A stretch of 64,000 bases of DNA from Flavobacteriaceae bacterium GF1 (GTDB taxonomy: Bacteria; Bacteroidota; Bacteroidia; Flavobacteriales; Flavobacteriaceae). The DNA is taken from assembly GCA_009797885.1 (NCBI GenBank), contig WNKP01000016.1, positions 1-64,000 of the forward strand. Reading direction: 5' to 3'. Numbering within the stretch: the first letter of the stretch is position 1; each line of letters opens with the position of its first letter. Shown in pieces: positions 33,343 through 62,797 of this stretch. The notes beneath the pieces were generated by a model, which did not search any database, was not told the DNA's origin, and saw only the letters and a list, made by a program, of their open reading frames with translations. The position numbers were made by a program, and so were the translations under genes.

Positions 33343-33356
33343 AAATATCCGATACT

Positions 33357-45647: not shown

Positions 45648-47918
45648 CTAGAAGTTCACGGACAACCGCCCTCTTAGGAAGAAGGGTGCTCCCGGTGTAA
45701 AGGTTATTTCTTCTACGGATTCCACTTCATCGAATAATCGGGTTTCTGTAGCAAACTGGGTTTCATTCCATTCCACGTCAAACAAATTCTCAACGATTAT
45801 TCCCATGGACCAGTTTTTGGAAAAATTGTAATTAAGATTCAAATCCGTAACAAAATAGCCCTCTGCAATTATGGAATCATCCTCATTTGCAGGGCGGTCA
45901 CCAATGTACCTGTAGCTTATGTTACCTGAAAACTTACCAAGGTTGCTCACCGTTAAGCCTCCGGTAGAGGTTAAATCCGGAGCCAATGGAATAAAATCCT
46001 GCCCATCCGGTTCATCAATACTTCTGGCTACGGTATAGTTGATATCAAAATTGGCAAACAACCAATCATTGATCTGATAGCGTGCCCCCAAATCCGCGCC
46101 ATAGCGGCGGGTACGGCCACTGGGTTCCACAATGGCTTCGTCACCCACAAAAACAAATTCCTGTTCCAAGGCCAAATACCAAAGGCCTGCGTTCAACAAA
46201 AAACGTTTAAAGGGCTTGGCAATGATCCCAATATCGCTACCAAAGGCAGAGGGCAAGGTTTCCTCAACACCTCCCACAGGGTCGGTCACTACGCGGCTAT
46301 CATTGGAGTGGAACCCAAAACCATTTTTCAAAAACAGTTGAAGGTTTGGAGAGGCGCTATAAATAAAATTGAGTTTAGGGCTAACAATTTGATCGTCCAC
46401 CTTAGGATTTCTAAAAACAGAGGTTGGGTTACCTTGGGAATCAAAGTTCAAAAAGTCCGTGTACTCAAAATTAAAATAATCCACACGCAAACCGGGGTTA
46501 ATGGTCCATCGGTTCAGCTTTATATCCGCATTGGCAAATGCGTATACGTTCAATTCGTCCACATCACCGAAAGCCAAACGACTAAGGATTTCCCTACGAT
46601 TTCGGGTTCTGGACAATTGCACGTCATTATTGTCATCATAACGAAATCCCAATCCAGATTGTAGGCTTAACTGGGTACTATGGTCCTTGGTGTGAAAAGA
46701 TCGACCGTACACCGTCTCCGCCCCAATTATTGTCCTATCCTCCACTTGCTGTATTTGGTCTCCATTTACAGGGTCGTTAAGGAAAAACGTAAAATTGGAA
46801 AAGAGTTCAAACGTATATTTGGACAGGAAGGCCTTGGTTTTCAAACTCTGGTGTTCATCCAGTTGCTTAAAATGGTTCAACCATATGTTTGAACGGCTGG
46901 TGTTTCCTCCTTCGGTATCGTCTATCGCACCAAATCTTGATATCCGCCCCTGATCCACTGCCCGCTGGGGAATCTGTCCAGATTGATTCCATTTGCTCTG
47001 AAAATGGGAAAGGCTTATGGTCAATTCCTCGTCCGTATAATTATTGAAATTGTAGCGGCCCAAGACGTTGACGCGATTAAAGTTCTGGGGGGATTCAAAT
47101 ACGCCATCGGACACAAGAAGTTCCGATGCCACATAGGCGTTGCTAAAATCACTTTCCGAAATCTTGACCATTCCAAGGGCCCTTACCGTATTAAATTGCC
47201 CGGCTTCCAAGGTAATCTGACTTTGGTCCAATTTCTTTTTGGTATGCAACTCCACATAGCCGGCGGTATTGAAATTACCAACATTCGCATAATACGGGCC
47301 TTTTCCAAAATCGATTTCCTCAATGGTCTCCGGAATTATAAAATGTAGGTCTGCATATCCTTGACCATGGGCATGGGACACCATATTGACCGGAAGACCG
47401 TCAACGCTTAGGGCAATATCCGTTCCGTGATCAATATCAAAACCCCGTAAAAAAATCTGCTCTGCCTTTCCACCACCACCATGTTGGCCTATGATCAGGC
47501 CAGGTACCCTTCTAATAATCTCCTGGGCCGATCTTACCGGATTCGTTTTAACATCAATGTTCACAAAATTGTTCAAGGCATTTATTTTGGATACCAGCAC
47601 CACCTGATCCAAGGAGATGGCCTCTTCCTGCAATACCACATTGTAGACCGAGTTTAAATTTCCTTCCTTGATTTCCAGTTCTTGCCTCACATATCCCAAA
47701 CTGTAAAAATAAAGCACATGGCCTACCTCAATATCCTCCAGCTCATAATATCCGGACATATTAGTGTAAGCGTAGGTGCCATTGGTTTTGTTATAGACTC
47801 CGGCACCTTCCACCGGTTTGCCTTTTTCATCTGTTATCTTTCCCGATATTTCATGGGCCATAAGTCCGATAGGGCCACAAAACAGGAGGATCAATACTAT
47901 TTTCGTAATCAGTTTCAT
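45648..47918 (-). CDS. TonB-dependent outer membrane receptor
   Basis: 756 residues. Signal peptide 1-21 (ending LMAHE), a carboxypeptidase-regulatory-like domain (about 22-100, ISGKITDEKGKPVEGAGVY), a plug domain (about 105-230, LRGFDIDHGTDIALSVDG and HAHGQGYADLHF), and a 22-strand-type barrel ending in RGRLSVNF. It transports a ligand across the outer membrane using TonB energy. It is the last gene of a minus-strand cluster with an NRPS and a His-rich protein, so the likely ligand is the NRPS product, perhaps carrying a metal. The His-containing plug segment agrees with, but does not prove, a metal ligand. Confidence 0.93.
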   Translation of the reverse strand: MKLITKIVLILLFCGPIGLMAHEISGKITDEKGKPVEGAGVYNKTNGTYAYTNMSGYYELEDIEVGHVLYFYSLGYVRQELEIKEGNLNSVYNVVLQEEAISLDQVVLVSKINALNNFVNIDVKTNPVRSAQEIIRRVPGLIIGQHGGGGKAEQIFLRGFDIDHGTDIALSVDGLPVNMVSHAHGQGYADLHFIIPETIEEIDFGKGPYYANVGNFNTAGYVELHTKKKLDQSQITLEAGQFNTVRALGMVKISESDFSNAYVASELLVSDGVFESPQNFNRVNVLGRYNFNNYTDEELTISLSHFQSKWNQSGQIPQRAVDQGRISRFGAIDDTEGGNTSRSNIWLNHFKQLDEHQSLKTKAFLSKYTFELFSNFTFFLNDPVNGDQIQQVEDRTIIGAETVYGRSFHTKDHSTQLSLQSGLGFRYDDNNDVQLSRTRNRREILSRLAFGDVDELNVYAFANADIKLNRWTINPGLRVDYFNFEYTDFLNFDSQGNPTSVFRNPKVDDQIVSPKLNFIYSASPNLQLFLKNGFGFHSNDSRVVTDPVGGVEETLPSAFGSDIGIIAKPFKRFLLNAGLWYLALEQEFVFVGDEAIVEPSGRTRRYGADLGARYQINDWLFANFDINYTVARSIDEPDGQDFIPLAPDLTSTGGLTVSNLGKFSGNISYRYIGDRPANEDDSIIAEGYFVTDLNLNYNFSKNWSMGIIVENLFDVEWNETQFATETRLFDEVESVEEITFTPGAPFFLRGRLSVNF

Positions 47919-48113
47919 TTCAATTTTTTATAAGGTTAGCAATACATATCCCTAGTGTTACGGGCCATAGCCCCAACCGTATGGATAATTACAGTTTTTA
48001 ATAACTATTGGTTTTGACAGAATATGAAAACCATCAATCGGGACAGAATTCCAGATTGGAGAACTTTTTCAAAGCCCGTCACACATTTATGGTTCTCATT
48101 TATCTCCTTTTAT

Positions 48114-48578
48114 TCAGCTAAATTGGGGGGGAGGGTACTGCAAACGGACATATCCTTTCAAAAGGGGGCTAAAAGTATCAGGAAAGAACCAATGGGTTTT
48201 GGATACCAATATGCTTTTGGCGTATCCAGCTTTAGTCACCAAATGTTTATCCAAATTGTTTTGGGTAAGGGTTGATTTTGAACCAGGAATATGGTTGTCG
48301 GAAGCCCCATTAGAAATGGTGTTGATAAAGTCCAATACGGTATGATGGTGTCTACCTGAAAAAGACTTGTGGTGGTATTCCAAATGATGCTGGTCCATAC
48401 CAGGGTTTCCGTACTTATGCGATAAAATGTTCTCTGACGCTTGGATACTGTGCGAAAGACCATGAAACACCCTACCGATTTCCCTGTGAATGGGATGTAT
48501 TAGATAGATCGTGGCCATCATGAGGGTCACAAGTCTCAACGCTATCGGTTTTGTTCTCATCTCTTTTTTGGTTCTCAT
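48114..48578 (-). CDS. His-rich small protein with one membrane helix or signal anchor
   Basis: 154 residues. One hydrophobic segment (about 12-27, IALRLVTLMMATIYLI) near the N-terminus is followed by a His-rich part: HREIGRVFHGLSH, MDQHHLEYHHKSF and GRHHHTVLDF (about residues 31-82). I do not recognise a named family. The clustered His suggest metal binding outside the cytoplasm. It starts 38 bp after the NRPS-1 stop and lies 195 bp before the TonB receptor on the same strand. A second start at residue 7 (48560) is possible. Confidence 0.7.
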   Translation of the reverse strand: MRTKKEMRTKPIALRLVTLMMATIYLIHPIHREIGRVFHGLSHSIQASENILSHKYGNPGMDQHHLEYHHKSFSGRHHHTVLDFINTISNGASDNHIPGSKSTLTQNNLDKHLVTKAGYAKSILVSKTHWFFPDTFSPLLKGYVRLQYPPPQFS

Positions 48579-48616
48579 ATGCTATAGCATTCCTATGAAT
48601 TTTTTGAAAAAACCGA

Positions 48617-51600
48617 CTAAGATTCTTCCAATAGTGTTAGTATGGTTTCCTCAATGTATTTGGCATAGGAAGCAATCGTAGGCAACTCAAATATTTTGTT
48701 GAGCGGGACATTTAACTGAAATTCTTCATTGATCCTTGCGGTAACGCGGATAGCTGCCAATGAATGCCCTCCCAAAGCAATGAAATTATCCTCCGTCCCT
48801 ACTTTATTAAGCTGTAGCACTTCCTTCCATATTACTGCGATCAGTTCCTCTATCTCACCTTTGGGGGCTACATAGGGTGTTTCCAGATTCAATTGATCGG
48901 TATTCAATTGTTTTAGACTGTTCTTATCCACTTTTCCATTGGTGGTCAATGGGAACTGTTCAACATGTTTTATATATCGTGGCACCATATAATCAGGCAA
49001 TCCCTTCTTAAGATATTCTGCCATTTCAATGGAAGGCATGGGGGACGCCCCGGTATAGTAAGCCACAAGATGCTCCTGGCCCAGTTCCGTTTCACCAGGC
49101 TCCTCATACCCAATTTCCTTCATCATGCGCAATACCTCATCTTCATGTATGTATTCATTGATCTCGTCCAGGGTCTCCTGTCTTGTCTTGTGTCCCATAC
49201 GAACATCCCAACTGTAGGGATAAGAGTAATTGCTATAGCCTTTCTGCTTTTTATGGACATAGATACCCAATTGGTTGATAAGACAATTCGTGGAACGTCC
49301 CGTGTCAGTTGGCCTTCGCCAGCCGATATCATTTTCCAGTACCTTGATCATTTCTTCGAGACTAACATCCGTGTACCTGTAAAAATCAATAAAACGCACC
49401 TTTTGAAAGGTTTCATCATCTTTGAACATATCCGTATCCAATAACGCTTTGGCCGCATCTTCTTCTTGATGGTATAATTTTCTTGCTTCGAGAATGGTTT
49501 CGTCAATGCGGGCAACGTCCGTATCCTCCTTCCAGAACAGTTCCTCAGTTAAGCGGGTTTCGTAGAACTGTCCTCTTGAAAGTCCGGTAACCACAAACGG
49601 TATCTTCTTTTCCAGTGCAATCTTTGTACTTAGGGTATATATGGTTTTGAAGCATCCGTTGCAGACATTTTGATGTCGGTGAAGGCTATCAACAAAGATT
49701 TTGTTCATGTGCTCGGTAGTGCCATAAACATGGTCTATTCCCATCTTGGATACGATATTGTCAATGTTATCCTTGGCTTGATCGGAGATGTATCCATTGT
49801 CCAGGGTAAATGCCAATACCTTTAAGCCCATTCTCTTGAGTTGGGCTAGGATGTAGGTACTGTCCTTTCCCCCACTTAAGAGGGATAGGCAATCGTATTC
49901 CCGGTCTTTATCAAGATTGGGATCCAATAGTATTTTCTTAAGGTCTTCTTCCGTTTTGAAATAACGGAGTGCGCGGTCCCTGTATTCCTCAAAGGCATTA
50001 CATACGTGGCACACTCCGTTTTCATCAAAATCCGCATTGGGATAGTTGGAGGGCAATCCACATTCAACACAATTCAAAATTTCTTCTTCAGGAATGGTCT
50101 TTTTCCTTTCCATCAAAACAACCGCAGCACTCTCCACAGCAGGATGCTTTTCCATATTTGCTTCTATATCGGTAAGCTCAATACGGAAACCCCGCAATTT
50201 GACCTGCTCATCGCTCCTACCTAAATACTCATACTCCCCATCCTGATTGATTCGGGCCAAATCCCCAGTGTAGTATAGTTTTTTGGTTCCGTCAAAGGGA
50301 TGGTCCACAAATCTTTCGGAGGTCAGTTCGGATAAGTTGGCATATCCACTGGCCAATCCCATTCCACCGAGGTATAACTCCCCCACTACGCCATGGGGCA
50401 CCATATTTTTGTGGGAATCCAAAATGTAGGCTTCCATACCATCGATGGTGCGACCTATAGGCACTGAGGTTTGGTCATGCTTTTCCACATCGAACAATCC
50501 AACGATACAACCGACCGTTGCTTCCGTAGGACCGTATTCATTATAAATCCTTAGATGGTCGCCAAAGTTGTTTTGGACAGTCTTCGCCAATTGCGTTTTA
50601 AAATCCTCCCCCCCAACAATCATCGTTTTGATTTTGGAGTTGGATACGTCCTTCTCCCGAATCAGATTCAAGTGGGAAGGCGTAAGTTTTATACTAGTGA
50701 CCCTATTCTGCTCAAAAACGTCCATTAAGGATATATCCGGACCATGGGCACTCTCTTTATAGACCACTACTTCCCCTCCGGTGACAAGAGGTAAAAAAGT
50801 GGATGTAATGGTAAGATCAAAACCGATGGAAGTAAAGAGTGGGAAAATGTATTTTTCCGAGTTAGCGTAGGCCTTTTTGGCCCAATGGATATAGTTGGAT
50901 AAGGCACTATGTGGGATCAATACGCCTTTTGGATTGCCCGTGGAACCGGAAGTATACAGGATATAGGCAATGCCCGTTGCATCTCCCACTACATTGGGAA
51001 GGTCATTGGTTTGGGCAGTACTGTCCCAATCAATTGTATCAAATACCACGAGGGTCGCAGCACTACCGGAAATATCGCTTTTTAAAGTGGTACTCGTTAG
51101 TAATACAGTAACGGCAGCATCCTTAAGAATATAGTTGATGCGTTGTTTTGGTTGATTGGACGGAATGGGAATAAAAGTGCCCCCAATTTTCAAGATGGCC
51201 AATACCCCGATCAAATACTTCGGACTGCGTTCCATATACAATCCTATCCTATCGTTCTTTTTAGCTCCGCACTCCAACAAATAATGGGCCAATCGATCTG
51301 ATTTTTGATCCAATTGCCCATAGTTTATAGTGTCTTCCTTAAAACGTATTGCTGGAGCACCGGGATTGGCCCCTACCTGTTCTTTGAACAGATCAAGAAC
51401 CGTAGCACTGCCGACATTACCCGAGTCCTTATGCATAATCTGTTCAAGCTCGGTAGCCGTTGCCATACCAGGTGCATGTATGGATTGCCCCATATCCTCC
51501 AAAAAGGCATCCAACAAATTCAAAAAGTGCTGTGGTACTTTCCCAATTAAATCTGGGCCAAAAGTTCCATGGTTCAGATCAAACAATAGTTCCATGTCCC

Positions 51601-52768
51601 CTTTGTTGTCAAAATCAACGACGTGACAACGTATTTGATGGGTAATATCAATATGCCCAGTAGGGATCCATTGCGATTTTATGGGAAGCCCATTGAAATC
51701 CGAAAAACTGGCATTTATGAAATTCAAAATGCAATTAAAGCTTCCACTGATGGCCGGTGTAACGCCCCCAGGTTGGGCATATCTTAGATATTCGTTGGTT
51801 TCTATGCGTATCCGTTGCAATATGGAATCAAAAGTATCTTCTTCCGAAAACGCTATAATTAATGGAAAAATCTCAATAAAGGCCCCCACGGTATCATGTG
51901 ACCTTTTGTTTAACCGATTATGTGTTGGCGCTCCTACGGCTATTCTTTTTTGACCACTTATTCGATGTAAATAGGTGAAGAATACAGTGGCCAACAAGTT
52001 GAACATTGTGAGGTTAGCCGTCCAGGCCCTGACCTCGGGCTTCTGAGCAAGCCTTTTTAGTTTTTGGGTCCTTTCATGGCCCAACGGAATTGAGACCCGG
52101 GTAGCATCGGTAATCGAATCTTTGCGTTTTACGCCATAAAAGTCAGGAGTGCCCGTAACGGTCTTTATCTTTTCTTCCCAATACGTGCCTGAACGCTCGT
52201 CGTGCTTATCCAAACGTGTCCGTTGTTCGTAATCCACGTATTCAAAAAAAGAAGGGCTTTCCGCTGGCCTGTCCCATTCGTTTTTCTCCATTTTGCCATA
52301 AATACCTACCAAACGCTTATATACAATGGTGGCCGAGATGGCATCGGTAACCAAATGGTGCATATTCAAGAACCATAGATAACGGTCCTCGTCAATTTTG
52401 AACAGGGCAGCGTCAAAAATCCGTGTGCCAATATCCAAAGGTATTCTACCGCGGCGCTGTATAATTTCCTCGATAACCTTTTCATCACTTTCCGAAGTCA
52501 GATCAATAAGTTCAGGTATAAAGTCAACCTTTGGTCTACTATACTGGAATGGGGTATTGTCTTCTTCCAGAAAAACAATGCGCATGGCATCCGTACAATT
52601 AATGGTTTCTTGAAATGCCCTGGAAAAAATGGAATGATCCACCATTCCCGCAATTTCAAAAGTATGTACTGTGTTGTGCAGGGGTTTGTCCGGACTTAGC
52701 TTTTGTCCTGCCCATAGCAGTAACTGGCTTTGGGTAAGTTCTCTCTTTTGTTGTTGGGTGCTTTCCAT
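48617..52768 (-). CDS. NRPS-1: C-A(PP-loop insert)-T, asparagine-type adenylation domain
   Basis: 1383 residues. C domain about 1-445 (HHLVTD with His137-138 and Asp142). A domain about 460-890 with all core motifs (YTSGSTGNPKG, NEYGPTEATVGC, YYTGDLAR, and A8 at 850-869). Specificity residues read D-L-T-K-I-G-E-V-G(-K), the known asparagine code. Between A8 and A9 there is an insert (about 890-1235) with a zinc ribbon (Cys900, 903, 920, 923), a PP-loop SGGKDS (965-970) and CNGC (1036-1039), like the WbpG/PseA amidotransferases. The A domain resumes with A9 (LPDYMVP, 1257-1263) and A10 (NGKVD, 1277-1281), followed by a T domain with the pantetheine Ser1336 (GGHSL). Starts 18 bp after the carrier protein gene. 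Activity on the tethered residue is inferred. Confidence 0.93.
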   Translation of the reverse strand: MESTQQQKRELTQSQLLLWAGQKLSPDKPLHNTVHTFEIAGMVDHSIFSRAFQETINCTDAMRIVFLEEDNTPFQYSRPKVDFIPELIDLTSESDEKVIEEIIQRRGRIPLDIGTRIFDAALFKIDEDRYLWFLNMHHLVTDAISATIVYKRLVGIYGKMEKNEWDRPAESPSFFEYVDYEQRTRLDKHDERSGTYWEEKIKTVTGTPDFYGVKRKDSITDATRVSIPLGHERTQKLKRLAQKPEVRAWTANLTMFNLLATVFFTYLHRISGQKRIAVGAPTHNRLNKRSHDTVGAFIEIFPLIIAFSEEDTFDSILQRIRIETNEYLRYAQPGGVTPAISGSFNCILNFINASFSDFNGLPIKSQWIPTGHIDITHQIRCHVVDFDNKGDMELLFDLNHGTFGPDLIGKVPQHFLNLLDAFLEDMGQSIHAPGMATATELEQIMHKDSGNVGSATVLDLFKEQVGANPGAPAIRFKEDTINYGQLDQKSDRLAHYLLECGAKKNDRIGLYMERSPKYLIGVLAILKIGGTFIPIPSNQPKQRINYILKDAAVTVLLTSTTLKSDISGSAATLVVFDTIDWDSTAQTNDLPNVVGDATGIAYILYTSGSTGNPKGVLIPHSALSNYIHWAKKAYANSEKYIFPLFTSIGFDLTITSTFLPLVTGGEVVVYKESAHGPDISLMDVFEQNRVTSIKLTPSHLNLIREKDVSNSKIKTMIVGGEDFKTQLAKTVQNNFGDHLRIYNEYGPTEATVGCIVGLFDVEKHDQTSVPIGRTIDGMEAYILDSHKNMVPHGVVGELYLGGMGLASGYANLSELTSERFVDHPFDGTKKLYYTGDLARINQDGEYEYLGRSDEQVKLRGFRIELTDIEANMEKHPAVESAAVVLMERKKTIPEEEILNCVECGLPSNYPNADFDENGVCHVCNAFEEYRDRALRYFKTEEDLKKILLDPNLDKDREYDCLSLLSGGKDSTYILAQLKRMGLKVLAFTLDNGYISDQAKDNIDNIVSKMGIDHVYGTTEHMNKIFVDSLHRHQNVCNGCFKTIYTLSTKIALEKKIPFVVTGLSRGQFYETRLTEELFWKEDTDVARIDETILEARKLYHQEEDAAKALLDTDMFKDDETFQKVRFIDFYRYTDVSLEEMIKVLENDIGWRRPTDTGRSTNCLINQLGIYVHKKQKGYSNYSYPYSWDVRMGHKTRQETLDEINEYIHEDEVLRMMKEIGYEEPGETELGQEHLVAYYTGASPMPSIEMAEYLKKGLPDYMVPRYIKHVEQFPLTTNGKVDKNSLKQLNTDQLNLETPYVAPKGEIEELIAVIWKEVLQLNKVGTEDNFIALGGHSLAAIRVTARINEEFQLNVPLNKIFELPTIASYAKYIEETILTLLEES
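49094..50086 (-). other. PP-loop amidotransferase-like domain inserted in NRPS-1 A domain
   Basis: This part of NRPS-1 (residues about 895-1225) resembles a full N-acetyl-sugar amidotransferase (WbpG/PseA, N-type ATP pyrophosphatase): four-Cys zinc ribbon with FDENGVCHVC, PP-loop SGGKDSTYILAQL, CNGC, and the end region with STNCLINQLG and RMGHKTRQETLDEI. The embedded position is the A8/A9 loop that tailoring methyltransferases occupy in known NRPSs. Exact domain edges are estimated. Confidence 0.82.
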
Positions 52769-52786
52769 ATCTAAAGACCAAAAAGA

Positions 52787-53023
52787 TCAGACATTCTTTT
52801 TGGATAGGTAGCTTACAATATGTTCTACATTCTTAAAGTTCTCAAAGCTCATATCTTCCGGAGGAATCCGAATATTGAATTTTTCCTCCACGTAAAGGAC
52901 CAATCGCATCATTCCCATAGAATCCACAATACCATCTTCCAAGAGATTGTCCTTTTTGTCTATTTGATACTTCCCTTCCGCTACTATCTGCTTTTCAAGA
53001 AAATCAATAATGATATGATACAT
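52787..53023 (-). CDS. Stand-alone acyl/peptidyl carrier protein
   Basis: 78 residues, the usual size of an ACP. The phosphopantetheine Ser35 lies in DGIVDSMGMMRL, and the rest fits a four-helix carrier (PPEDMSFENFKNVEHIVSYL). First gene of the minus-strand cluster, 18 bp before NRPS-1, whose first domain is a condensation domain. It most likely presents the starter acyl or aminoacyl group to that domain. No loading ligase is seen in the window. Confidence 0.93.
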   Translation of the reverse strand: MYHIIIDFLEKQIVAEGKYQIDKKDNLLEDGIVDSMGMMRLVLYVEEKFNIRIPPEDMSFENFKNVEHIVSYLSKKNV

Positions 53024-53044
53024 CTTTAAGATTTATTTAAGGAC

Positions 53045-53075
53045 TAAATGTATCTGTATGTGGATATTGGAACAA
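53045..53075 (-). promoter_or_regulatory. Predicted promoter of carrier protein/NRPS-1 operon
   Basis: On the minus strand TTG (53075-53073), a 20-base gap, then TACATTTA (53052-53045), one base from the TAnnTTTG consensus. The start codon is about 22 bases downstream, so the leader would be very short. Confidence 0.35.
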
Positions 53076-53248
53076 TTATTTCTGCCCAAGGGTGAACTTT
53101 TGTCTTTAAAGCGGAATATTTACGCTTTATATGGAGGATAAAAGTGTAATTGTTTCAAAAAATGGCATTTAGCAACCTCCCACTCCCACCCTATTATGGA
53201 TACCTATTTGGAATAACTGGAAAATTGCATGCTATGAATTGTCCGAAC

Positions 53249-53270
53249 AACCATTGCTTCCGCAATGGTT
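53249..53270. promoter_or_regulatory. Inverted repeat in divergent region, possible operator
   Basis: AACCATTGC and GCAATGGTT form a perfect 9-bp inverted repeat around TTCC. It lies about 225 bp from the carrier protein start and about 450 bp from the HupE start. No T run follows, so it is more likely a protein-binding site or RNA hairpin than a terminator. Confidence 0.4.
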
Positions 53271-53631
53271 CCGCTACGGTTTTCCACTTTAGTACTTATG
53301 CCCTATTTAAAGGATTCTCTCTGGAAGGGTACGGATAAAATACATAAGCCTTCCTATTTTCCGTTCGCACAAAATGATAAAAGGTGTTGTTACAATGGCG
53401 CATACGGTACCTAGGGGGACAGAACGGTCTCAGAATGAGCTATTTTAGGGCTATTCGACCGCATGCTTGTACTGTGTTATGGTCGTTCGTCCCTATAAAT
53501 TTCAATTATATCCAATAATAACTTCGATATGTTAACAAAAAGTCCTGAATGACTACCTTGGGGAGTTTAATTGTGTTGTCAAACCTATTATTGATTCAAA
53601 ATTTGACTTACGGTTCCTTTTTAAAGCCAAT

Positions 53632-53654
53632 AATTCCCTTTCAGGGAATTTTTA
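53632..53654 (+). terminator. Terminator-like hairpin in the HupE leader
   Basis: AATTCCC (53632-53638) and GGGAATT (53644-53650) form a 7-bp stem with a 5-base loop, followed by TTTA. It is 68 bp upstream of the HupE-like start, so it could end an upstream transcript or act as an attenuator of the plus-strand operon. Confidence 0.4.
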
Positions 53655-53721
53655 TTCTTCATTGGGATACAGCACAACTAAATTAAGCCCCGCAATACGC
53701 ATTGACCAATATATTTTGACT

Positions 53722-54978
53722 ATGAAAAAATATGTACCGCAACTTCTCTTTGTCCTTTTTCTATTGATTCCAATAGCAGTGAGTTCGCACGAACCCAATC
53801 AAAGCTTCATCTATGTTCGCGTCTATGAACAGACCGGAATCGATGGGCGCTTTGAATTGAACGTGAATCAACTGAATTCGGTATTAAACCTAAATTTGGA
53901 TAAACATCCCAGTCCCGAGGATATAAGGCCTTTTGAAAAGCAGATCCAAGAATATATTTTGAGAAATACGGCTTTTTCGTCCATCCATGGCGCCCATGCC
54001 ATTCTTTTTACGGGAGAGATAACCATGTTGAAGATCGGTTATGGATCATATGTTCAATTGTACTTTCATCTGGAGAATTCTGAGGTCCTACCTGAAGAAA
54101 TTGAAGTTACCCATGGTGTTTTCATTGAAGAAAACAGGGGCCACAGGAATTTTTTGACCATGGAGTACAACTGGAAGGCAGGGCTGATAAATAACGAAGC
54201 CGTTTTTGCACTTGATTTTACCGAAGGGAATACCACGAAAACCTGGGACTTATCGGATAGGTCCACCTGGAATGGATTTATGGCCATGATCAAACAAGGG
54301 GTATGGCACATATGGATCGGTTTGGACCATATTTTATTTTTAGTGGCACTGATCCTACCATCCGTAGTACGGAGAAAGCAACGCGAGAAACAGCATCCCG
54401 AATCACAATCCAAAGCTAAATTTGACATCTGGGGCTGGGTTCCCGTGGACAACTTCAAATCGGCTTTTTGGTATATCATTAAAATCGTTACTTTCTTTAC
54501 CATTGCCCATACCATAACATTGAGTTTGGCCTCCTTGCAGATTATCGTATTGCCGTCACGTATTGTGGAAACTGTTATCGCATTTTCCATTGGACTTGCC
54601 GCTTTTCACAATATTCGACCTATTTTTAAGGGTAGGGACTGGGTTATTGCATTTATCTTTGGATTGTTCCATGGCTTCGGATTTGCCAGTGTCCTTGGGG
54701 ATTTGGGCTTTAACGGAGAGCACCTTGTACTCTCTTTATTAGGTTTTAATATAGGTGTGGAAATAGGTCAAGTGGTAATTATTGCCGCAATCTTTCCCTT
54801 TCTATTTTTGATCAGAAAACGAAAACTGTATCCAAAGTTTTTGGTCTTTATGTCGGTTTTACTCATTCTAATGTCCTTAAATTGGATATTGGAACGGGGT
54901 TTTGAGATAGATTTTGGAGTAGACCATTTTATAAGAAAAGTAAGGTTTGAATTGGCAAGATGGTTTGGCATCCGATAA
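53722..54978 (+). CDS. HupE/UreJ-type membrane protein
   Basis: 418 residues from the ATG at 53722, chosen because it begins a signal peptide (MKKYVPQLLFVLFLLIPI); the open frame starts 20 codons earlier. A periplasmic domain (about 25-200) is followed by HIWIGLDHILFLVALI and about five more helices with FGLFHGFGFASVLGDLGF. This is the HupE/UreJ_2 membrane core; family members have been linked to nickel or cobalt handling, but that is not shown here. NRPS-2 starts 77 bp downstream on the same strand, so it probably takes part in export, uptake or metal supply for the NRPS product. Confidence 0.86.
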   Translation: MKKYVPQLLFVLFLLIPIAVSSHEPNQSFIYVRVYEQTGIDGRFELNVNQLNSVLNLNLDKHPSPEDIRPFEKQIQEYILRNTAFSSIHGAHAILFTGEITMLKIGYGSYVQLYFHLENSEVLPEEIEVTHGVFIEENRGHRNFLTMEYNWKAGLINNEAVFALDFTEGNTTKTWDLSDRSTWNGFMAMIKQGVWHIWIGLDHILFLVALILPSVVRRKQREKQHPESQSKAKFDIWGWVPVDNFKSAFWYIIKIVTFFTIAHTITLSLASLQIIVLPSRIVETVIAFSIGLAAFHNIRPIFKGRDWVIAFIFGLFHGFGFASVLGDLGFNGEHLVLSLLGFNIGVEIGQVVIIAAIFPFLFLIRKRKLYPKFLVFMSVLLILMSLNWILERGFEIDFGVDHFIRKVRFELARWFGIR

Positions 54979-55055
54979 TTTTGGATCGGACCGCCCCCAA
55001 ACAACAAGTTTTCGTGCACTTAGGTGCAAAGGGAAAGAGCAATTAGAGGGATTTC

Positions 55056-57971
55056 ATGGAAAACAAATCATTATTAGATCAGTGGAAGGCTAAGAAGCAA
55101 AAGCAGAACCTAGATGGGAATAAAATCGGTAAGGCGCCCGAAGGGGCGGTCATACCCCTCTCAAGAAGTCAACAAAGACTTTGGTTCCTACAGCAATTGC
55201 ATCCAAATAGCCACGTGTATAACTATGCTGAAATCTACACTTTCACTGGGGCATTGGTAAAAAGCGCCCTTTTGGAAAGTATACGGTCCATCTTCAGTGA
55301 GAATGCTATTTTAAGGACTTACTACACCCTGGAAAATGGGGAACCACGGCAGCAAGTGAATAGCGATGCAGCCTTGAAAATTTCGCAGTACGATCTCACC
55401 AATCTGGAACCGGGTCAAAAAGAGGAAAAAAAGGAGGAAGTCTTCAAAAAGGACACCAACACCCATTTTGATTTAACACAAGCCCCTTTGGTTCGTGTTT
55501 CATTAATGAAATTATCGGACCAGGAACATATCCTTTTGGTGACCATGCACCACATTTTAACGGACAAATGGTCAATGGGGATTTTTAGGGCGCAATTGGC
55601 AAAAAAGTACCTCCAGGCCATAAATGGGGAAATCCAAAATGAGAACTTGGAAATTCAATATACGGACTATGCGTATTGGCAAAAGGAAAATGGATTTCAA
55701 CAAAGTCAAGTTGACTATTGGATGGAGAAATTGTCAGGCCCAATTCCAGAGTTGCATCTTCCCGTAGACAGATACCCGACAGTCCATCATTCATTCAATG
55801 GTAATTCACATACCCAAAACTTTTCCAAAAACCACTCGCAGGACATCTTAAAACTGGCAAAGGAACTGGAGGTTACCCCCTATGTTTTCTTCCTCACTGC
55901 CTATTATATCCTATTGCATAAATATTCGGGACAGCAGGACATCCTGGTAGGTTCACCCATTTCAAACAGAAACGAACCTATTCTTGAAAACATGATAGGT
56001 TTTTTTGATGAAACCATTGTCTTACGATCCAAAATGGACAGCTCCCTAACATTTAAACAATTGGTCGCTACGGTAAAGGAAAATACAATGAAGGCCTTTT
56101 CCAACAAGGATGTACCTTTCGATTTATTGGTAAAAAGACTAAAACCGGAGAGGTCCCTGGGGAGAAATCCATTCTTTAGATCCATGTTTATCTATCACGC
56201 CGTTCCCGAAACCCCTTCCTTCGGTGACGACCTTAAACTGACCCATTCGTTTTTTGACAACAAGGTATCAAAGTTCGATTTGACCTTATATATTGCCAAT
56301 GAAGATGATGTATTGTCCACTTCTTTTGAGTATTCCACCGACTTATTCGATACACAAACGATTGAACGGTTTCAAGGACACCTAAACGTTCTTTTGGAGA
56401 AAATTACCAAAGCACCGGACACGGCCATTTCTGAGTTGACTATCTTAACTCCCTGGGAAAAAGAGCTTTTTTTTCCCAAACCACTTTCGTCGATTGGTAT
56501 ATTCAATGCGTACAAAGGCATCCATGATGTTATATTGGAAAATGCCGAAACAAAAAGTCATGAAACGGCTGTGGCCTTCGGGGAGAAATCAATAACCTAT
56601 GGGGAACTGGGGAAAAGTGCGGAAAAGGTGGCTAGAGATCTCCTTAAGATAACGGAAGGTGAAAAGGGCATCATTGGATTATGTGCAGACCGATCCATTG
56701 ATATGATCGTAGGCCTCCTGGGCATTTTAAAAGCCGGATGTGCCTACCTTCCCATTGATCCCACCTATCCAAAACAACGGATTCATTTCATGTTAACGGA
56801 TGCTGGTGCCAATGTCGTTTTGGCCCAGGAATCCCTTAAACCCATCCTATCGGAATTTAAGGGACCCTTGGTCCCGCTGGACGTGGAAAACCATAAGGGT
56901 GATGGAGGTTCGGACAAGGTGAAATTTCCCGTAACGGAACGCAATGATTTGGCCTATATCATATACACGTCGGGAAGTACGGGCAAACCAAAGGGCGTTC
57001 CCATTTCCCATGGGAAGATCATAGGCTCCACGGAAGGAAGGCTGGAATTTTATCCCCAAAATCCGAAAACATTTTTATTGATGTCCTCCATTGCGTTCGA
57101 TAGCTCAAAAGCCGGGATTTTCTGGACACTTTGTAGCGGTGGCAAGCTTGTGGTTGCCGAAAAGCATTTGGAGCAGGATATGGAAAAAGTAGGGGCCACA
57201 CTTATCACGCACCAGGTCACCCATACCTTAATGCTACCTTCTTTATACGGATTGTTACTTGACCATCTAAGTCCACGACAATTACAAAGCCTTAAGACGG
57301 TAATTGTGGCAGGAGAGTCTTGTTTGCCATCCGTATGCAAAAGCCATTTTGAAAAATTGCCCGGGGTTTCCCTTTATAATGAATATGGGCCAACGGAAAC
57401 CACGGTATGGTGTATTGCCCATAAAATTGAACCAGAAGATGTAAACGGCAACATCCCAATAGGCAAGGCGGTGGCAAAATCCCGAATTTTGTTGTTGGAT
57501 GACAACTTAAACCATGTGCCCTTTGGCGCTATTGGTGAAATTTATATTGGGGGCCCCGGATTGGCGTTGAGCTATCTAAACCGTCCCGAATTGTCCTCCA
57601 AAGCCTATATTGACCACCCCTTTGAAAAAGGTTCCAAACTTTACAAAACGGGGGATTTGGGAAGGTACACTGGTCAAGGGAATATCCTATTTTTGGGTAG
57701 GGCCGACCAACAGATCAAAATCAGGGGCCATCGTATTGAATTGGACGAAATAGAACGGGTCATTGATGAAAGTGGCCATGTGAAAAAGGTTGTACTGGCT
57801 ATTGAAGAAAACAACGAAGGTGTTCCTTTTGATGATAAGGTCAGTGATTCCTCCAATTTATGGGCATATCTAACGAATCATTTGGCTGAGCGGGATATCA
57901 ACGATCTATTGAAGTATATCGAAGCCTTGGATGAAAAGGAAAAACAGTATTTACTGAGTCAAATCCCATAA
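55056..57971 (+). CDS. NRPS-2 part 1: condensation and adenylation core, ending after A8
   Basis: 971 residues. C domain about 30-470 (HHILTD with His165-166 and Asp170). A domain from about 500: TSGSTGKPKG (638-647), NEYGPTETTVWC, YKTGDLGR, A8 GRADQQIKIRGHRIELDEIE (881-900). The protein stops 71 residues later, before A9 and A10, and has no T domain. The missing A9/A10, T and TE are encoded two genes downstream. Specificity residues read about D-S-A-M-I-A-E-V-W; the first Asp fits an alpha-amino acid but I cannot assign the residue. No frameshift is needed to explain the end: the next gene has its own start 22 bp away. Confidence 0.93.
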   Translation: MENKSLLDQWKAKKQKQNLDGNKIGKAPEGAVIPLSRSQQRLWFLQQLHPNSHVYNYAEIYTFTGALVKSALLESIRSIFSENAILRTYYTLENGEPRQQVNSDAALKISQYDLTNLEPGQKEEKKEEVFKKDTNTHFDLTQAPLVRVSLMKLSDQEHILLVTMHHILTDKWSMGIFRAQLAKKYLQAINGEIQNENLEIQYTDYAYWQKENGFQQSQVDYWMEKLSGPIPELHLPVDRYPTVHHSFNGNSHTQNFSKNHSQDILKLAKELEVTPYVFFLTAYYILLHKYSGQQDILVGSPISNRNEPILENMIGFFDETIVLRSKMDSSLTFKQLVATVKENTMKAFSNKDVPFDLLVKRLKPERSLGRNPFFRSMFIYHAVPETPSFGDDLKLTHSFFDNKVSKFDLTLYIANEDDVLSTSFEYSTDLFDTQTIERFQGHLNVLLEKITKAPDTAISELTILTPWEKELFFPKPLSSIGIFNAYKGIHDVILENAETKSHETAVAFGEKSITYGELGKSAEKVARDLLKITEGEKGIIGLCADRSIDMIVGLLGILKAGCAYLPIDPTYPKQRIHFMLTDAGANVVLAQESLKPILSEFKGPLVPLDVENHKGDGGSDKVKFPVTERNDLAYIIYTSGSTGKPKGVPISHGKIIGSTEGRLEFYPQNPKTFLLMSSIAFDSSKAGIFWTLCSGGKLVVAEKHLEQDMEKVGATLITHQVTHTLMLPSLYGLLLDHLSPRQLQSLKTVIVAGESCLPSVCKSHFEKLPGVSLYNEYGPTETTVWCIAHKIEPEDVNGNIPIGKAVAKSRILLLDDNLNHVPFGAIGEIYIGGPGLALSYLNRPELSSKAYIDHPFEKGSKLYKTGDLGRYTGQGNILFLGRADQQIKIRGHRIELDEIERVIDESGHVKKVVLAIEENNEGVPFDDKVSDSSNLWAYLTNHLAERDINDLLKYIEALDEKEKQYLLSQIP

Positions 57972-57993
57972 AATGGCCTTATAAACTTCAAAA

Positions 57994-58782
57994 ATGAAAA
58001 AGCTTAAACGATCCAATGACTTTGAAATAAACCTTGTTCTAAAGAACGAAGGTTTTATTGCCCCTCCAAGGGAAGCACAACGAAATGCGGTGGTCAACAG
58101 GGCCCTAAAAGAGTTTGTGGCAGATTTGAATGCACTTCATGAACAGACCAAACGCTTTGTCCCTGGAAAAACACCGGACTACATTTCAGATGATCGGGAG
58201 CAGAAGGTATTGGATGACAATGAAATCATGGAAGACTGGCTCATTCCCGTAATGCAGGTCATGGCCAATGTGATCTGTGACAAAGGGGGGGATATCCTTG
58301 AAATTGGTTTTGGTAGGGGCATATCTGCGGATATGATACAGCAGCATGCCATCCAATCCCATACCATAATCGAATGCAACGATGCGGTAGTCGCCAAATA
58401 CCACAAATGGACGGACAAGTACCCGGGGAGGGACATCAGATTGGTCCATGGGCTATGGCAGGACACCATTCAAAATTTGGATCTTTTTGATGGTATTTTC
58501 TTTCACACCTATCCCTTGAACGAAGATGAATATATGCGCTACGTAAATGCAAGCATTACATTTGCCGAGCATTTCTTTTCCCATGCGGCACAACATTTAA
58601 AGCCTGGAGGTGCATTTACCTATTTCTCAAACGAAATCCATTCTTTGAGCAGGGAACACCAACGGCTATTGCTCAATCATTTTTCCTCATTTTCGGTACA
58701 AATTGTACCTCTTGTGATGCCCGAAGATGTTATTGACACTTGGTGGGCCGATAGTATTGCCGTTGTTAAAGCCATTAAATAA
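57994..58782 (+). CDS. GAMT-like SAM methyltransferase
   Basis: 262 residues, class I SAM-dependent methyltransferase. SAM motif ILEIGFGRG (101-109), then HTIIECNDAVVAKYHKW with ECND at 127-130, GLWQDTI, and IFFHTYPLNEDE (about 168-179). The ECND, LW-D and TYPL features match guanidinoacetate methyltransferase (GAMT). The GAMT substrate-binding Asp in YDTYPL is replaced by His171. So it likely methylates another nitrogen, perhaps on the NRPS-bound residue. The gene sits exactly where an embedded methyltransferase would lie in an uninterrupted A domain; its stop overlaps the next start (TAATG). Confidence 0.88.
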   Translation: MKKLKRSNDFEINLVLKNEGFIAPPREAQRNAVVNRALKEFVADLNALHEQTKRFVPGKTPDYISDDREQKVLDDNEIMEDWLIPVMQVMANVICDKGGDILEIGFGRGISADMIQQHAIQSHTIIECNDAVVAKYHKWTDKYPGRDIRLVHGLWQDTIQNLDLFDGIFFHTYPLNEDEYMRYVNASITFAEHFFSHAAQHLKPGGAFTYFSNEIHSLSREHQRLLLNHFSSFSVQIVPLVMPEDVIDTWWADSIAVVKAIK

Positions 58783-60119
58783 TGAATCCGTCCTTAGAAG
58801 AAAGAATACAAAAACTCACCGAAGACGATCGCAAACTTCTGCTCCATCGCCTGGAAGGCATATTCAACACACCTAAAGAACAACTGGACCCCAAAAGTTC
58901 AAAAAAAATAGTGGCCTATATGCAGGTAGCGGAGAATTTTGACATGGATACCTTTAAATACCATGTTAAGCGCACCCTTCCGGAATATATGGTTCCCTCG
59001 GTTTACCACCTGGTACCAAATGTCCCGCTTTTACCCAATGGTAAAGCCGATAAAAATGCCTTGAAAGAAATGGTCGCCGAAGCTGACGATTTGGAAACTG
59101 ATTTTGTGGCACCTAAATCCGATGTTCAAAAACAATTGGTCTCCATTTGGGAGGAAATCCTCAATTTTTCCCCTATCAGTATCCACGACAATTTCTTTGA
59201 AATTGGTGGGGATTCCATATTGAGTATCCAGGTGATATCCAAAGCCAGAAACCTGGGCATCATGCTTTCGGCCAATCAATTGTTCGAGCATCAGACCATT
59301 GCTGAATTGGATGAGCTATTGTCCAGGGAAAAGAAAGCCAAGGTTGATAAAACGTTTGATTACATTACGGTCATTAGAAAAGGAGGAAACAAAAGGCCTT
59401 TGTTCTGTATCCACTCTGGGGGCGGACATGTTTTTTTCTACCACCTGCTCGCAAAATACATACGACCCGATCGTCCAATCTATGCCATTCAGCCAAGCGG
59501 ATTATACAAGAAACAAAAAATCCATGCCAATATTGAAGAAATGACCCTGGACTATCTAAAGGCCATTAAGGATATTCAACCACAAGGTCCCTATAATGTT
59601 TTGGTACATTGTTTCAGTACTTCGGTGGGACATGAAATGGCCATACAACTATCAAAGACCAAGGAAAAAATCAACATAATTGTCGCGGATAACATGGCCT
59701 CTCCATGGAAAGCCACCTCCCCAGACGTATTAAAGGTTCGTATTTTCTCCTTCATCAGAAGATTGTTCCGGTCACCGCTCAAAACCATCAAACTTTTCTT
59801 GCAAGAAAGACGTTATCTTATAGAGCCCTTAAAGGTTAAATGGTTTGGCAAAGAATATGAGAAGGAACTTGAAAGACTGAAATCCAATCTAAGAAAGATA
59901 AGTCTTGATTATGAATGGAAGAATCGGCACGATGGCCATGTATCTTTATTATTGACCAATAAGCCAGACAAACAGTTCCAGGATTTGATTGTCAACTCAT
60001 GGAAGAACCTTGCCCTTGGCGGGGTAAAGGTATATCCCACAAAAGGGGAACATACGACGCTATTTGAAGAGCCGGATGTCCAATTTGTGTCTGAACAAAT
60101 AGATAATGCCATGCAATAA
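58782..60119 (+). CDS. NRPS-2 part 2: A subdomain, T domain and Cys-type thioesterase
   Basis: 445 residues. A9/A10 subdomain about 40-100 (LPEYMVP at 66-72, NGKADKNAL with Lys88). T domain about 108-185, pantetheine Ser145 in GGDSILS. Thioesterase about 195-445: the nucleophile position, by alignment of the helix ending HEMAIQL with EntF-type enzymes, is Cys277 (VHCFSTS) instead of Ser in GxSxG. Asp303 and His424 (GEHTTLF) complete the triad. It supplies in trans the parts missing from NRPS-2 part 1 and releases the product. Starts within the methyltransferase stop codon. Confidence 0.92.
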   Translation: MNPSLEERIQKLTEDDRKLLLHRLEGIFNTPKEQLDPKSSKKIVAYMQVAENFDMDTFKYHVKRTLPEYMVPSVYHLVPNVPLLPNGKADKNALKEMVAEADDLETDFVAPKSDVQKQLVSIWEEILNFSPISIHDNFFEIGGDSILSIQVISKARNLGIMLSANQLFEHQTIAELDELLSREKKAKVDKTFDYITVIRKGGNKRPLFCIHSGGGHVFFYHLLAKYIRPDRPIYAIQPSGLYKKQKIHANIEEMTLDYLKAIKDIQPQGPYNVLVHCFSTSVGHEMAIQLSKTKEKINIIVADNMASPWKATSPDVLKVRIFSFIRRLFRSPLKTIKLFLQERRYLIEPLKVKWFGKEYEKELERLKSNLRKISLDYEWKNRHDGHVSLLLTNKPDKQFQDLIVNSWKNLALGGVKVYPTKGEHTTLFEEPDVQFVSEQIDNAMQ

Positions 60120-60136
60120 CCCATAACCCAATTTTG

Positions 60137-60838
60137 ATGCAAGAGCCCAATACCCATGAAGCACACATTTGGTCCATTAATATGGACCAGGTTACCATAA
60201 AAACATTGCAACACTTTTATAATACCCTTTCCCTTGACGAACAACAGCGGGTCTCAAAATTTAAATTCGTAAAAGATCGAACGACCTTTACCATAGCGCG
60301 GGCTTCGCTTAGAACACTATCCGGCAAATACCTCAATATGGAACCAAAGGAAATCATGTTTCATTATGGGAAATTTGGAAAGCCACAATTTCATCATTCC
60401 ACTTCACTAAAGTTCAATGTTTCCCATTCTGGAAATAATGTGATCATAGGTTTTGTCCAAGATTATGATATGGGGGTGGATGTAGAAGAAATTAAAGACA
60501 ACCCGGACCTATTGGACATCGCAAAACAATTCTTCTCAAAATCGGAAGTAGCAGCTTTGGAAGAAATTCCAACAGCCGATCGGTACAATGCATTTTATCG
60601 TTGTTGGACCCGCAAAGAAGCTTTTATAAAAGCCAAAGGAAATGGTCTTTCCTATCCCTTGGATTCCTTTTCCGTTTCACTTGACCATAATTCAGAAGCG
60701 AAACTTGAAAGTCTTGACTCCGATCCAAAAGAGAAAAATACGTGGAACATGTTCTCGTTCAAACCCCATGAGAACTACATCGCTGCCATGGCAGTTCAAG
60801 GAAACGTGAACGCATTCAAGGTAATGGAATGGTCGTAA
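60137..60838 (+). CDS. Sfp-type 4'-phosphopantetheinyl transferase
   Basis: 233 residues from the ATG at 60137 (a TTG at 60134 is in frame but less likely). Motifs NVSHSGNN, GVDVEEI and WTRKEAFIKAKG are the three signatures of Sfp-type enzymes. It converts the apo T domains and carrier protein of this locus to the holo form with coenzyme A. It starts 17 bp after the thioesterase gene, so it is the last gene of the plus-strand operon. Confidence 0.95.
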   Translation: MQEPNTHEAHIWSINMDQVTIKTLQHFYNTLSLDEQQRVSKFKFVKDRTTFTIARASLRTLSGKYLNMEPKEIMFHYGKFGKPQFHHSTSLKFNVSHSGNNVIIGFVQDYDMGVDVEEIKDNPDLLDIAKQFFSKSEVAALEEIPTADRYNAFYRCWTRKEAFIKAKGNGLSYPLDSFSVSLDHNSEAKLESLDSDPKEKNTWNMFSFKPHENYIAAMAVQGNVNAFKVMEWS

Positions 60839-62597: not shown

Positions 62598-62797
62598 TAG
62601 GCAATATTATGTGTTTTTAAAAAAGATCCATTTAAAATGGAAAGCGCCTAATGTAGCTCTTCCCGTGCAATGCTCAAGGTTGGGATAATGGTTTATCGGG
62701 TCCTGGCACTGCAGATTTTACAATTATTCCAACAAGCCCTATTCCCTACGTAGAAAAACGGTGTTCTTTTGAAGGTTTTGGACCCAGAGCCATCAAG

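Follow-up and report, generated by a model that had tools for sequence, protein, structure and literature searches.

We analysed a 64-kb window of DNA (contig WNKP01000016.1, positions 1 to 64,000) from the 5.28-Mb genome of Flavobacteriaceae bacterium GF1, in which a sequence-only reading had seen a compact, divergently transcribed nonribosomal peptide synthetase (NRPS) locus and proposed it as a candidate metallophore system. The asparagine-type adenylation (A) domain of the first synthetase, NRPS-1, is interrupted by a PP-loop ATPase domain, which is probably a thioamide synthetase, with a putative [4Fe-4S] cluster, that would act in cis on carrier-bound asparagine. This insert is the real novelty of the locus and had been overlooked, as had the splitting of the A domain of the second synthetase, NRPS-2. 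A pathway to a thio-asparagine metallophore with a TonB-dependent receptor (TBDR) and a HupE/UreJ-type membrane protein (HupE) is the best explanation of the locus as a whole, although we put it at slightly less than an even chance. The genes and intergenic gaps first described are all present exactly as stated (Table 1), with gaps on the minus strand of 195 bp between the genes for TBDR and the small protein HisR, 38 bp between those for HisR and NRPS-1, and 18 bp between those for NRPS-1 and the carrier protein.

NRPS-1 contains the motifs HHxxxD, TSGSTG, RGxRIE, LPxYMxP, NGKxD and GGHS. Within its single open reading frame (ORF), RGFRIE (A8) is located at residue 859, LPDYMVP (A9) at residue 1257 and NGKVD at residue 1277, and the roughly 330 extra residues between A8 and A9 (894-1225) form a TIGR03573 (WbuX)-like PP-loop domain. 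NRPS-1 therefore has a second catalytic-type domain within a complete A domain, as is the case in interrupted A domains. In KtzH, TioN and TioS a catalytic domain likewise lies inside the A domain, mostly between A8 and A9, but the inserts named in the cited part of that review are methylation (M), oxidase (Ox) and ketoreductase (KR) domains, whereas the insert described here is a PP-loop ATPase (PMC11355689). Searches of an open-licence library listed no paper whose title or abstract describes either an A domain with a PP-loop insert or this cluster. The architecture is an interrupted A domain in a new form, carrying what is probably CtaC-type chemistry.

The insert is found in several phyla. 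We used a profile made from a four-sequence NRPS-1 alignment to scan contigs from 84,980 species, each represented by a single genome, and obtained at least 592 stretches and at least 479 relatives; the best 80 of 479 were kept, and the other 399 may include ordinary NRPSs. A tblastn search of the contigs with the single window protein as query had found no relative. The insert is present in all 80 kept loci, in the window and in the three relatives of the alignment, a count that is partly selected and does not give the frequency of insert-less A domains, because the ranking of loci depended on how well all of NRPS-1 matched. The three relatives correspond to L033, L034 and L038 of the kept set. 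Residue counts below refer to 82 rows, which include these three duplicates and from which L073 and L078, cut by contig ends, were dropped, and neighbourhood counts refer to 81 non-duplicate loci (80 and the window), 54 from Bacteroidota and 27 from other phyla. The hosts include Arenibacter, Maribacter, Zobellia, Kriegella, Pricia, Gelidibacter and Saprospiraceae, and further Anaerolineae (Chloroflexota), Gammaproteobacteria, Desulfobulbaceae, Nitrospirae, Verrucomicrobia and Microvirga/Bradyrhizobium/Mesorhizobium; many are metagenome-assembled genomes (MAGs). In even samples the insert is rare: a full-length copy in a frame of about 1350-1390 aa was found in 2 of 395 Bacteroidota genomes, of which one is the genome of the window, and an insert-bearing NRPS-1 in 11 of 120 Flavobacteriaceae genomes, again including that of the window. 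The nearest relatives of the window's insert in a tree, L031 and L053 from uncultured Maribacter, are 80% identical to it. The sequence-only reading had suggested looking for the gene order in other genomes; the gene set recurs there, and the arrangement is therefore not due to chance.

Across the window and the three relatives, the share of invariant positions is 59% in the insert, followed by the thiolation (T) domain (54%), the A subdomain (40%), the A core (34%) and the condensation (C) domain (20%), compared with 36% in NRPS-1 as a whole. By pairwise identity, the T domain is conserved as much as the insert or more in two of the three relatives; judged from these alignments, the insert together with the T domain is the best-conserved part of the protein. 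The SGGxDS PP-loop is present in 82 of 82 inserts, as are three cysteines that form a putative Fe-S site, C1036 and C1039 of a CxxC motif and C1162. A CxxC with a third Cys is the pattern found in AANH sulfur insertases that have a [4Fe-4S] cluster (CtaC, TtcA/TtuA and LarE). The arrangement resembles that in CtaC, the first thioamide synthetase for thioamidated nonribosomal peptides, which the cited part of the paper describes as exceedingly rare (PMC6772006). The CtaC residues given there, D77, C154, C157 and C284, correspond to spacings of 77 and 127; in the insert, the CxxC follows the PP-loop Asp by 67 residues and the third Cys, likened to that of CtaC by spacing alone, follows after another 121-123. 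CtaC, like the proposed synthetase, is an AANH/PP-loop enzyme that acts on a carrier-bound substrate, but it is a separate protein that modifies the backbone amides of poly-beta-alanine in an NRPS-independent pathway. Its homologues occur mainly in anaerobes, some of them near NRPSs, and the insert family may overlap with the 100-sequence CtaC homologue network of the same paper (PMC6772006).

The PP-loop fold is shared with the sulfur insertases TtuA, NcsA and [4Fe-4S] LarE, which act on tRNA or, for LarE, on a nicotinate-derived substrate, and which are 12-22% identical to the insert in fold alignments. A profile of 64 inserts matches LarE (8cnz) at 1.3e-8, with the CxxC placed over the LarE Cys pair, which we take to be a cluster ligand. 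An AlphaFold model of the insert (pLDDT 91.6) was compared with known structures using Foldseek, which ranked the sugar amidotransferase 8wex first (6.0e-12), followed by TtuA with its Fe-S cluster, NcsA, YcfA and LarE, and using VIA-align, which gave 8wex at Z 20 and then, at Z 13.3-13.6, LarE, ArtA (a nitrile synthetase) and NcsA, a list from which the absence of a family is no exclusion. Assignment of the insert to asparagine synthetase, QueC or NAD synthase was considered and rejected, as these gave weak matches only.

The A-domain code of NRPS-1 is DLTKIGEVG in 71 of 84 sequences, the window included, with near variants in the other 13. It is close to DLTKLGEVGK, which we take to be the reference Asn code and on which the meaning of the NRPS-1 code is based; the A domain is thus predicted to activate asparagine. 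Of the nine code positions, three overlap with the scan patterns used (I[VI]GGED[FL]K or [KRQ]I[YF]NEYGP), and the uniformity there is partly selected; the other six positions, and the window's own code, are free of this selection. In seven loci, from rhizobia and one Gemmatimonadetes MAG (L085-L090 and L092), NRPS-1 has the form A[insert]-T without a C domain, and HHxxxD is absent from the first 400 residues in 7 of 7. The Asn side chain would therefore be the only amide on the carrier, and it is mainly because of these loci that side-chain rather than backbone thionation is proposed, assuming that nothing is joined before the insert acts. NRPS-1 lies at about 9.9-12.9 kb in these stretches (2.1-5.1 kb in L089); all seven also hold a phosphopantetheinyl transferase (PPTase) and an acyl-CoA dehydrogenase, without HupE or a receptor of the window's type, and five have a thioesterase-type gene (TubC_N-thioesterase in L087). 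An AsnB-type (asparagine synthetase) gene is present in the flanks of L061, L086 and L092; two further candidates were rejected, the 598-aa ORF of L087 being a beta-helix protein and the 589-aa ORF of L085 a GMC oxidoreductase.

The receptor and HupE genes travel with NRPS-1, which disposes of their absence from all relatives, the outcome that the sequence-only reading had regarded as fatal to its proposal. The TBDR is present in 48 of the 54 Bacteroidota loci (three of the six misses are contigs under 10 kb), always on the NRPS-1 strand (48/48) and downstream of it in 42. Its orthologues in the three relatives are 64-66% identical, and the window genome has no close paralogue, the next-best match being partial and 31% identical. 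Solved receptors (PhuR, BtuB, CntO and FoxA) gave weak partial sequence matches only, uninformative on the ligand. HupE, which matches PF13795 (HupE_UreJ_2) at 1.7e-46 and 158.1 bits against a gathering score of 24.5 (run from 53716), has counterparts in 65 of 81 loci, of which 61 are HupE_UreJ_2-like and 4 of the shorter HupE_UreJ type; 53 of the 65 are within 6 kb of NRPS-1. The whole window genome holds four HupE_UreJ_2 genes. A HisR homologue accompanies 38 of the 54 Bacteroidota loci. The gene with His stretches is there as first described, but to call its product His-rich was an overstatement, in that only two His, H39 and H79, are conserved at 95% or more over 37 relatives.

The recurrence of the TBDR and of HupE beside NRPS-1 makes a metallophore role in Bacteroidota likely, with Cu, Ni or Co as the candidate metals. 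Methanobactins combine a thioamide metal ligand with TonB-dependent uptake according to abstracts, and the product proposed here would share both features with them; methanobactins and chalkophores use other biosynthetic routes. No riboswitch, such as a cobalamin riboswitch pointing to cobalt, scored above threshold in five loci, the only match above threshold being a signal recognition particle RNA in one of them; in the window, positions 40000-64000 gave no credible match, the best (E 0.084) being a Listeria small RNA model far below its gathering score. Thioamides favour Cu(I). The residues conserved in HupE (H216, D222, H223, H283 and H337, numbered in a 438-aa ORF) are of the His/Asp/Glu rather than the Cys/Met kind, and the cited part of the HupE literature indicates Ni/Co, not Cu (PMC4284471); both points speak against copper.

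The distribution of the receptor also counts against the metallophore pathway. The window-type TBDR was found in none of the 27 non-Bacteroidota loci, within the flanks covered, where the presence of a different TonB receptor was judged from gene lists and from the Pfam annotation of a few neighbours. TBDR orthologues occur in 80 of 199 Flavobacteriaceae genomes, many of them without NRPS-1, while all 11 genomes with an insert-bearing NRPS-1 in the sample of 120 carry one. These two distributions argue against a universal uptake system. Among 20 higher-scoring receptor regions of about 19 kb each, five hold an insert-bearing NRPS-1, three an insert-less one and twelve none; the last fit receptor-keeping non-producers, and also a receptor with another ligand. 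One of the twelve (L201:12326-12655) retains a 109-aa remnant of the NRPS-1 T domain beside an intact-looking receptor and HisR, and appears to be a decayed producer. Of the 16 loci that lack HupE, seven are contigs under 10 kb and seven are the rhizobial-type loci, which count against the pathway as well.

It is on these grounds that the cluster product could instead be an antibiotic or a signal, with the receptor and HupE kept for other reasons or the receptor importing the compound for other ends, an alternative that we consider unlikely yet take seriously. Closthioamide, a thioamide nonribosomal peptide, is a gyrase inhibitor according to the cited part of PMC6772006, and a glycosyltransferase accompanies 20 of the 81 loci. 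The association of HupE-type genes with the cluster over several phyla, compared with just four copies in the window genome, and the fixed strand and mostly downstream position of the TBDR argue for the metallophore.

For the insert itself, some results weigh against sulfur insertion. Its best profile family is TIGR03573, the sugar amidotransferases, which make amidines, and profiles of the sulfur insertases LarE and TtuA match it weakly and after TIGR03573, in a comparison that did not include the CtaC sequence. The whole fold is nearest to 8wex, the N-acetyl sugar amidotransferase LpNASAT, with which the insert shares SGGxDS and a Zn tetracysteine; CxxC...[GN]xCxxC together with the PP-loop is characteristic of N-acetyl sugar amidotransferases such as WbpG/WbuX (PMC10607449, cited part). 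This tetracysteine is common to 82 of 82 inserts and to all 32 stand-alone family members compared (the best-scoring 32 of 72 distinct rows over the TIGR03573 cut-off, all from Bacteroidota), and the Cys triad is complete in 5 of these 32, so that it is not unique to inserts. Among annotated neighbours no sulfur donor gene was seen, although no search was aimed at sulfur donors; the CtaC cluster likewise encodes no sulfur-mobilisation enzyme (PMC6772006, cited part).

The insert might accordingly be a true amidotransferase that adenylates the Asn side-chain amide and adds ammonia to form an amidine, as N-acetyl sugar amidotransferases do on sugars. The methyltransferase of the locus, which resembles guanidinoacetate N-methyltransferase (GAMT), might then N-methylate the amidine, since GAMT, going by the family name, methylates a guanidine, an amidine-like group. 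We regard this as rather unlikely. The insert scores 132-137 bits (137.2) against TIGR03573, below the curated cut-off of 203.2, and its invariant triad is missing in 27 of the 32 stand-alone members. In a maximum-likelihood tree the inserts form one side of a branch with support of 100/100 and a length of 4.03, for which the tool warned that long branches meet; the 32 stand-alone proteins are therefore not close kin of the inserts. N-acetyl sugar amidotransferases use sugars and ammonia (PMC10607449, cited part); the context of the insert is an NRPS and not lipopolysaccharide. Pfam and profile annotation revealed no glutaminase partner at the window's locus, the relatives not having been searched for glutaminases. 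The GAMT-like gene is also present in just 18 of 81 loci. The five triad-bearing stand-alone proteins (L124, L127, L131, L133 and L138, with SFGKDS in place of SGGKDS in L124, L127 and L133) are possible sulfur-inserting enzymes in a family named after amidotransferases, as far as their residues indicate.

It appears improbable that the insert dehydrates the side chain of Asn and so forms beta-cyanoalanine, a nitrile of the kind that QueC/ArtA-type enzymes produce from amides. ArtA scores like LarE (Z 13.6), which is again a point against sulfur insertion, and Pfam QueC matches weakly (5.2e-6), but the sequence match to the nitrile synthetase in the PDB has an E-value of merely 0.05, and a nitrile-forming enzyme would leave the invariant Cys triad unexplained.

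In three relatives the NRPS-1 of this cluster has no insert and is 1033-1044 aa long: L203:11966-15100 (genome G571) and L205:5293-8418 (G069) have codes that we take to specify serine, and L204:11349-14450 (G543) is of the Asn type. From their sequences these look like natural module swaps beside the same receptor, and they count against thionation being essential to the receptor module. They could also suggest that the insert has no catalytic activity and is a relic of a structural or regulatory kind. This is very improbable, since the PP-loop, tetracysteine and Cys triad are kept without change in all 82 inserts, which come from several phyla, and since 59% of insert positions are invariant in four relatives compared with 36% of the whole protein.

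The one A domain of NRPS-2 is divided over two genes at a point between A8 and A9, and the methyltransferase gene fills the cut. The split is real in the window, because stops lie between the halves. The methyltransferase had no Pfam match at 0.001, merely weak methyltransferase matches (up to E 5), and its PDB match is to guanidinoacetate N-methyltransferase 1xcj (2.5e-24, residues 65-212). The GAMT-like gene, counted above by tblastn, was seen by gene calling in 12 loci, in 9 of which it lies between the NRPS-2 halves; of the remaining three, L016 and L082 have it at the edge of the stretch, and L066 has no second half that gene calling recognised. In L019, NRPS-2 is cut without a methyltransferase, 65 bp separating the halves. 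Of 61 long insert-less A domains (duplicates included), 59 have the NRPS-2 code DSALIAEVW or one close to it, the exceptions being one truncated sequence and one DAFWLGGTF. The reading of this code as His is a weak guess by way of DSELTAEVCK, which we take to be a bacitracin code. The one-piece NRPS-2 of L011:4413-8774 has extra residues at the site of the window's cut that resemble, by eye, the two loose ends there, and these may be a re-fusion scar.

A stand-alone carrier protein is present in 67 of 81 loci and a PPTase in 45. An A ligase accompanies 52 loci, an acyl-CoA dehydrogenase 42 (35 without the seven rhizobial-type loci) and a cyclodeaminase 19. The best PDB match of the L019 dehydrogenase is the prolyl-ACP dehydrogenase 4irn (2e-116), and the L061 cyclodeaminase is nearest to lysine cyclodeaminase 5gzi (2.4e-86). 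Relatives thus carry the ligase, dehydrogenase and carrier of a prolyl-ACP starter set of what we take to be the AnaB/AnaC/AnaD type, of which the window keeps the carrier only. No starter ligase, AnaB-like oxidase or cyclodeaminase lies beside the window's NRPS-1, and its own genome holds no good candidate elsewhere (best non-NRPS ligase match 1.6e-17; best dehydrogenase 35% identical), a further point against the proposed pathway. The ligase code in L062, L083 and L084 (Desulfobulbaceae and Nitrospirae) is DLFYLALV, presumably specifying proline. These three loci also have a 456-466-aa protein with a radical-SAM-like Cys motif beside the cluster, for which a Pfam Radical_SAM match is shown for L083 only.

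The pathway that we favour would start with an acyl or aminoacyl unit on the stand-alone carrier protein, which NRPS-1 would condense with asparagine. Using ATP, the insert would adenylate an amide oxygen of the carrier-bound Asn, most likely that of the side chain, and a [4Fe-4S] cluster on C1036, C1039 and C1162 would replace this oxygen by sulfur, yielding a thio-asparagine unit. NRPS-2 would add a second residue, for which the code is His-like, and the GAMT-like enzyme would methylate it before the thioesterase (TE) releases the product of this small cluster, a peptide of two to three units. This agrees with the order that the sequence-only reading had put forward, in which a carrier-bound starter, an Asn-type residue and a second residue are joined, modified and released, and which is supported as far as the methyltransferase and release by the TE. 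The product would be secreted and, with donor groups of the thioamide and imidazole type, would chelate Cu, Ni or Co as a metal of soft or borderline character; the metal-loaded form would re-enter through the TonB receptor, and HupE would move the metal across the inner membrane. The sequence itself shows the order of genes and domains, the Asn-type code, the insert with its Cys triad, and conservation, whereas a bound Fe-S cluster, sulfur chemistry at the side chain, the His residue with the site of methylation, the metal, and export and uptake are inferred.

Extended to all hosts, our proposal is a tentative one that falls somewhat short of even probability. Widespread NRPS modules would make thio-asparagine in cis by a [4Fe-4S] synthetase within the Asn A domain. 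The product in Bacteroidota would be a thioamide-imidazole metallophore for Cu, Ni or Co, served by a TonB receptor and a HupE permease of its own, and in rhizobia and relatives a stripped set of A[insert]-T, TE and dehydrogenase would make a thio-asparagine-derived small molecule.

Table 1. Features of the NRPS locus, in window coordinates
Feature	Position	Strand	Basis
TBDR; CarbopepD_reg_2, plug and barrel; 756 aa	45648..47918	-	Pfam TonB_dep_Rec 3.2e-25
HisR, small secreted-looking protein with His stretches; 154 aa; no known family	48114..48578	-	sequence
NRPS-1; C - A(Asn) interrupted by PP-loop domain - T; 1383 aa	48617..52768	-	Pfam Condensation 3.6e-57, AMP-binding 1.6e-75
Insert between A8 and A9, residues 894-1225; TIGR03573-like PP-loop ATPase	49094..50089	-	profile, model, fold
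Third Cys of putative Fe-S site, C1162	49283..49285	-	82/82 inserts; 121-123 residues after C1039
CxxC of putative Fe-S site, C1036 and C1039	49652..49663	-	82/82 inserts
PP-loop SGGKDS, residues 965-970 of NRPS-1	49859..49876	-	identical in 82/82 inserts
Stand-alone carrier protein, DSM phosphopantetheine site; 78 aa	52787..53023	-	Pfam PP-binding 1.3e-13
HupE/UreJ-type membrane protein with N-terminal extension	53722..54978 (ATG at 53722; ORF opens with TTG at 53662)	+	PF13795
NRPS-2a; C and A core up to A8; 971 aa	55056..57971	+	Pfam, motifs
GAMT-like methyltransferase at A8/A9 cut of NRPS-2; 262 aa	57994..58782	+	PDB 1xcj
NRPS-2b; A subdomain (A9-A10) - T - TE; 445 aa	58782..60119	+	Pfam Thioesterase 1.3e-13, motifs
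Sfp/HetI-type PPTase	60134..60838	+	Pfam ACPS 1.3e-19

Purple acid phosphatase-like and alkaline phosphatase genes adjoin the cluster (61014-63901, minus strand). Elsewhere, the window encodes a 1926-aa protein with DUF285 stretches, a HYR domain and a CHU_C type IX secretion signal (12796-18576, minus strand). At 32200-36414 on the plus strand, a universal stress protein precedes two subunits of the ATP synthase alpha/beta type, which we guess to be V-type, and more genes lie beyond them up to about 40 kb.

The locus is real, conserved, mechanistically specific and testable. The natural variants, namely the Ser-like and Asn-type insert-less NRPS-1 proteins, the receptor-only genomes and the one decayed NRPS-1, provide a ready comparative test set. 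If the proposal holds, a synthetase embedded in an A domain, with a substrate readable from the code and with hosts that range over several phyla and include marine Flavobacteriaceae, would allow the mining of thioamide peptides to be guided by prediction and would supply a portable tailoring domain for NRPS engineering. It would also offer a candidate answer to the question of what is carried by a HupE/UreJ-type protein and by one family of TonB receptors in Flavobacteriaceae.

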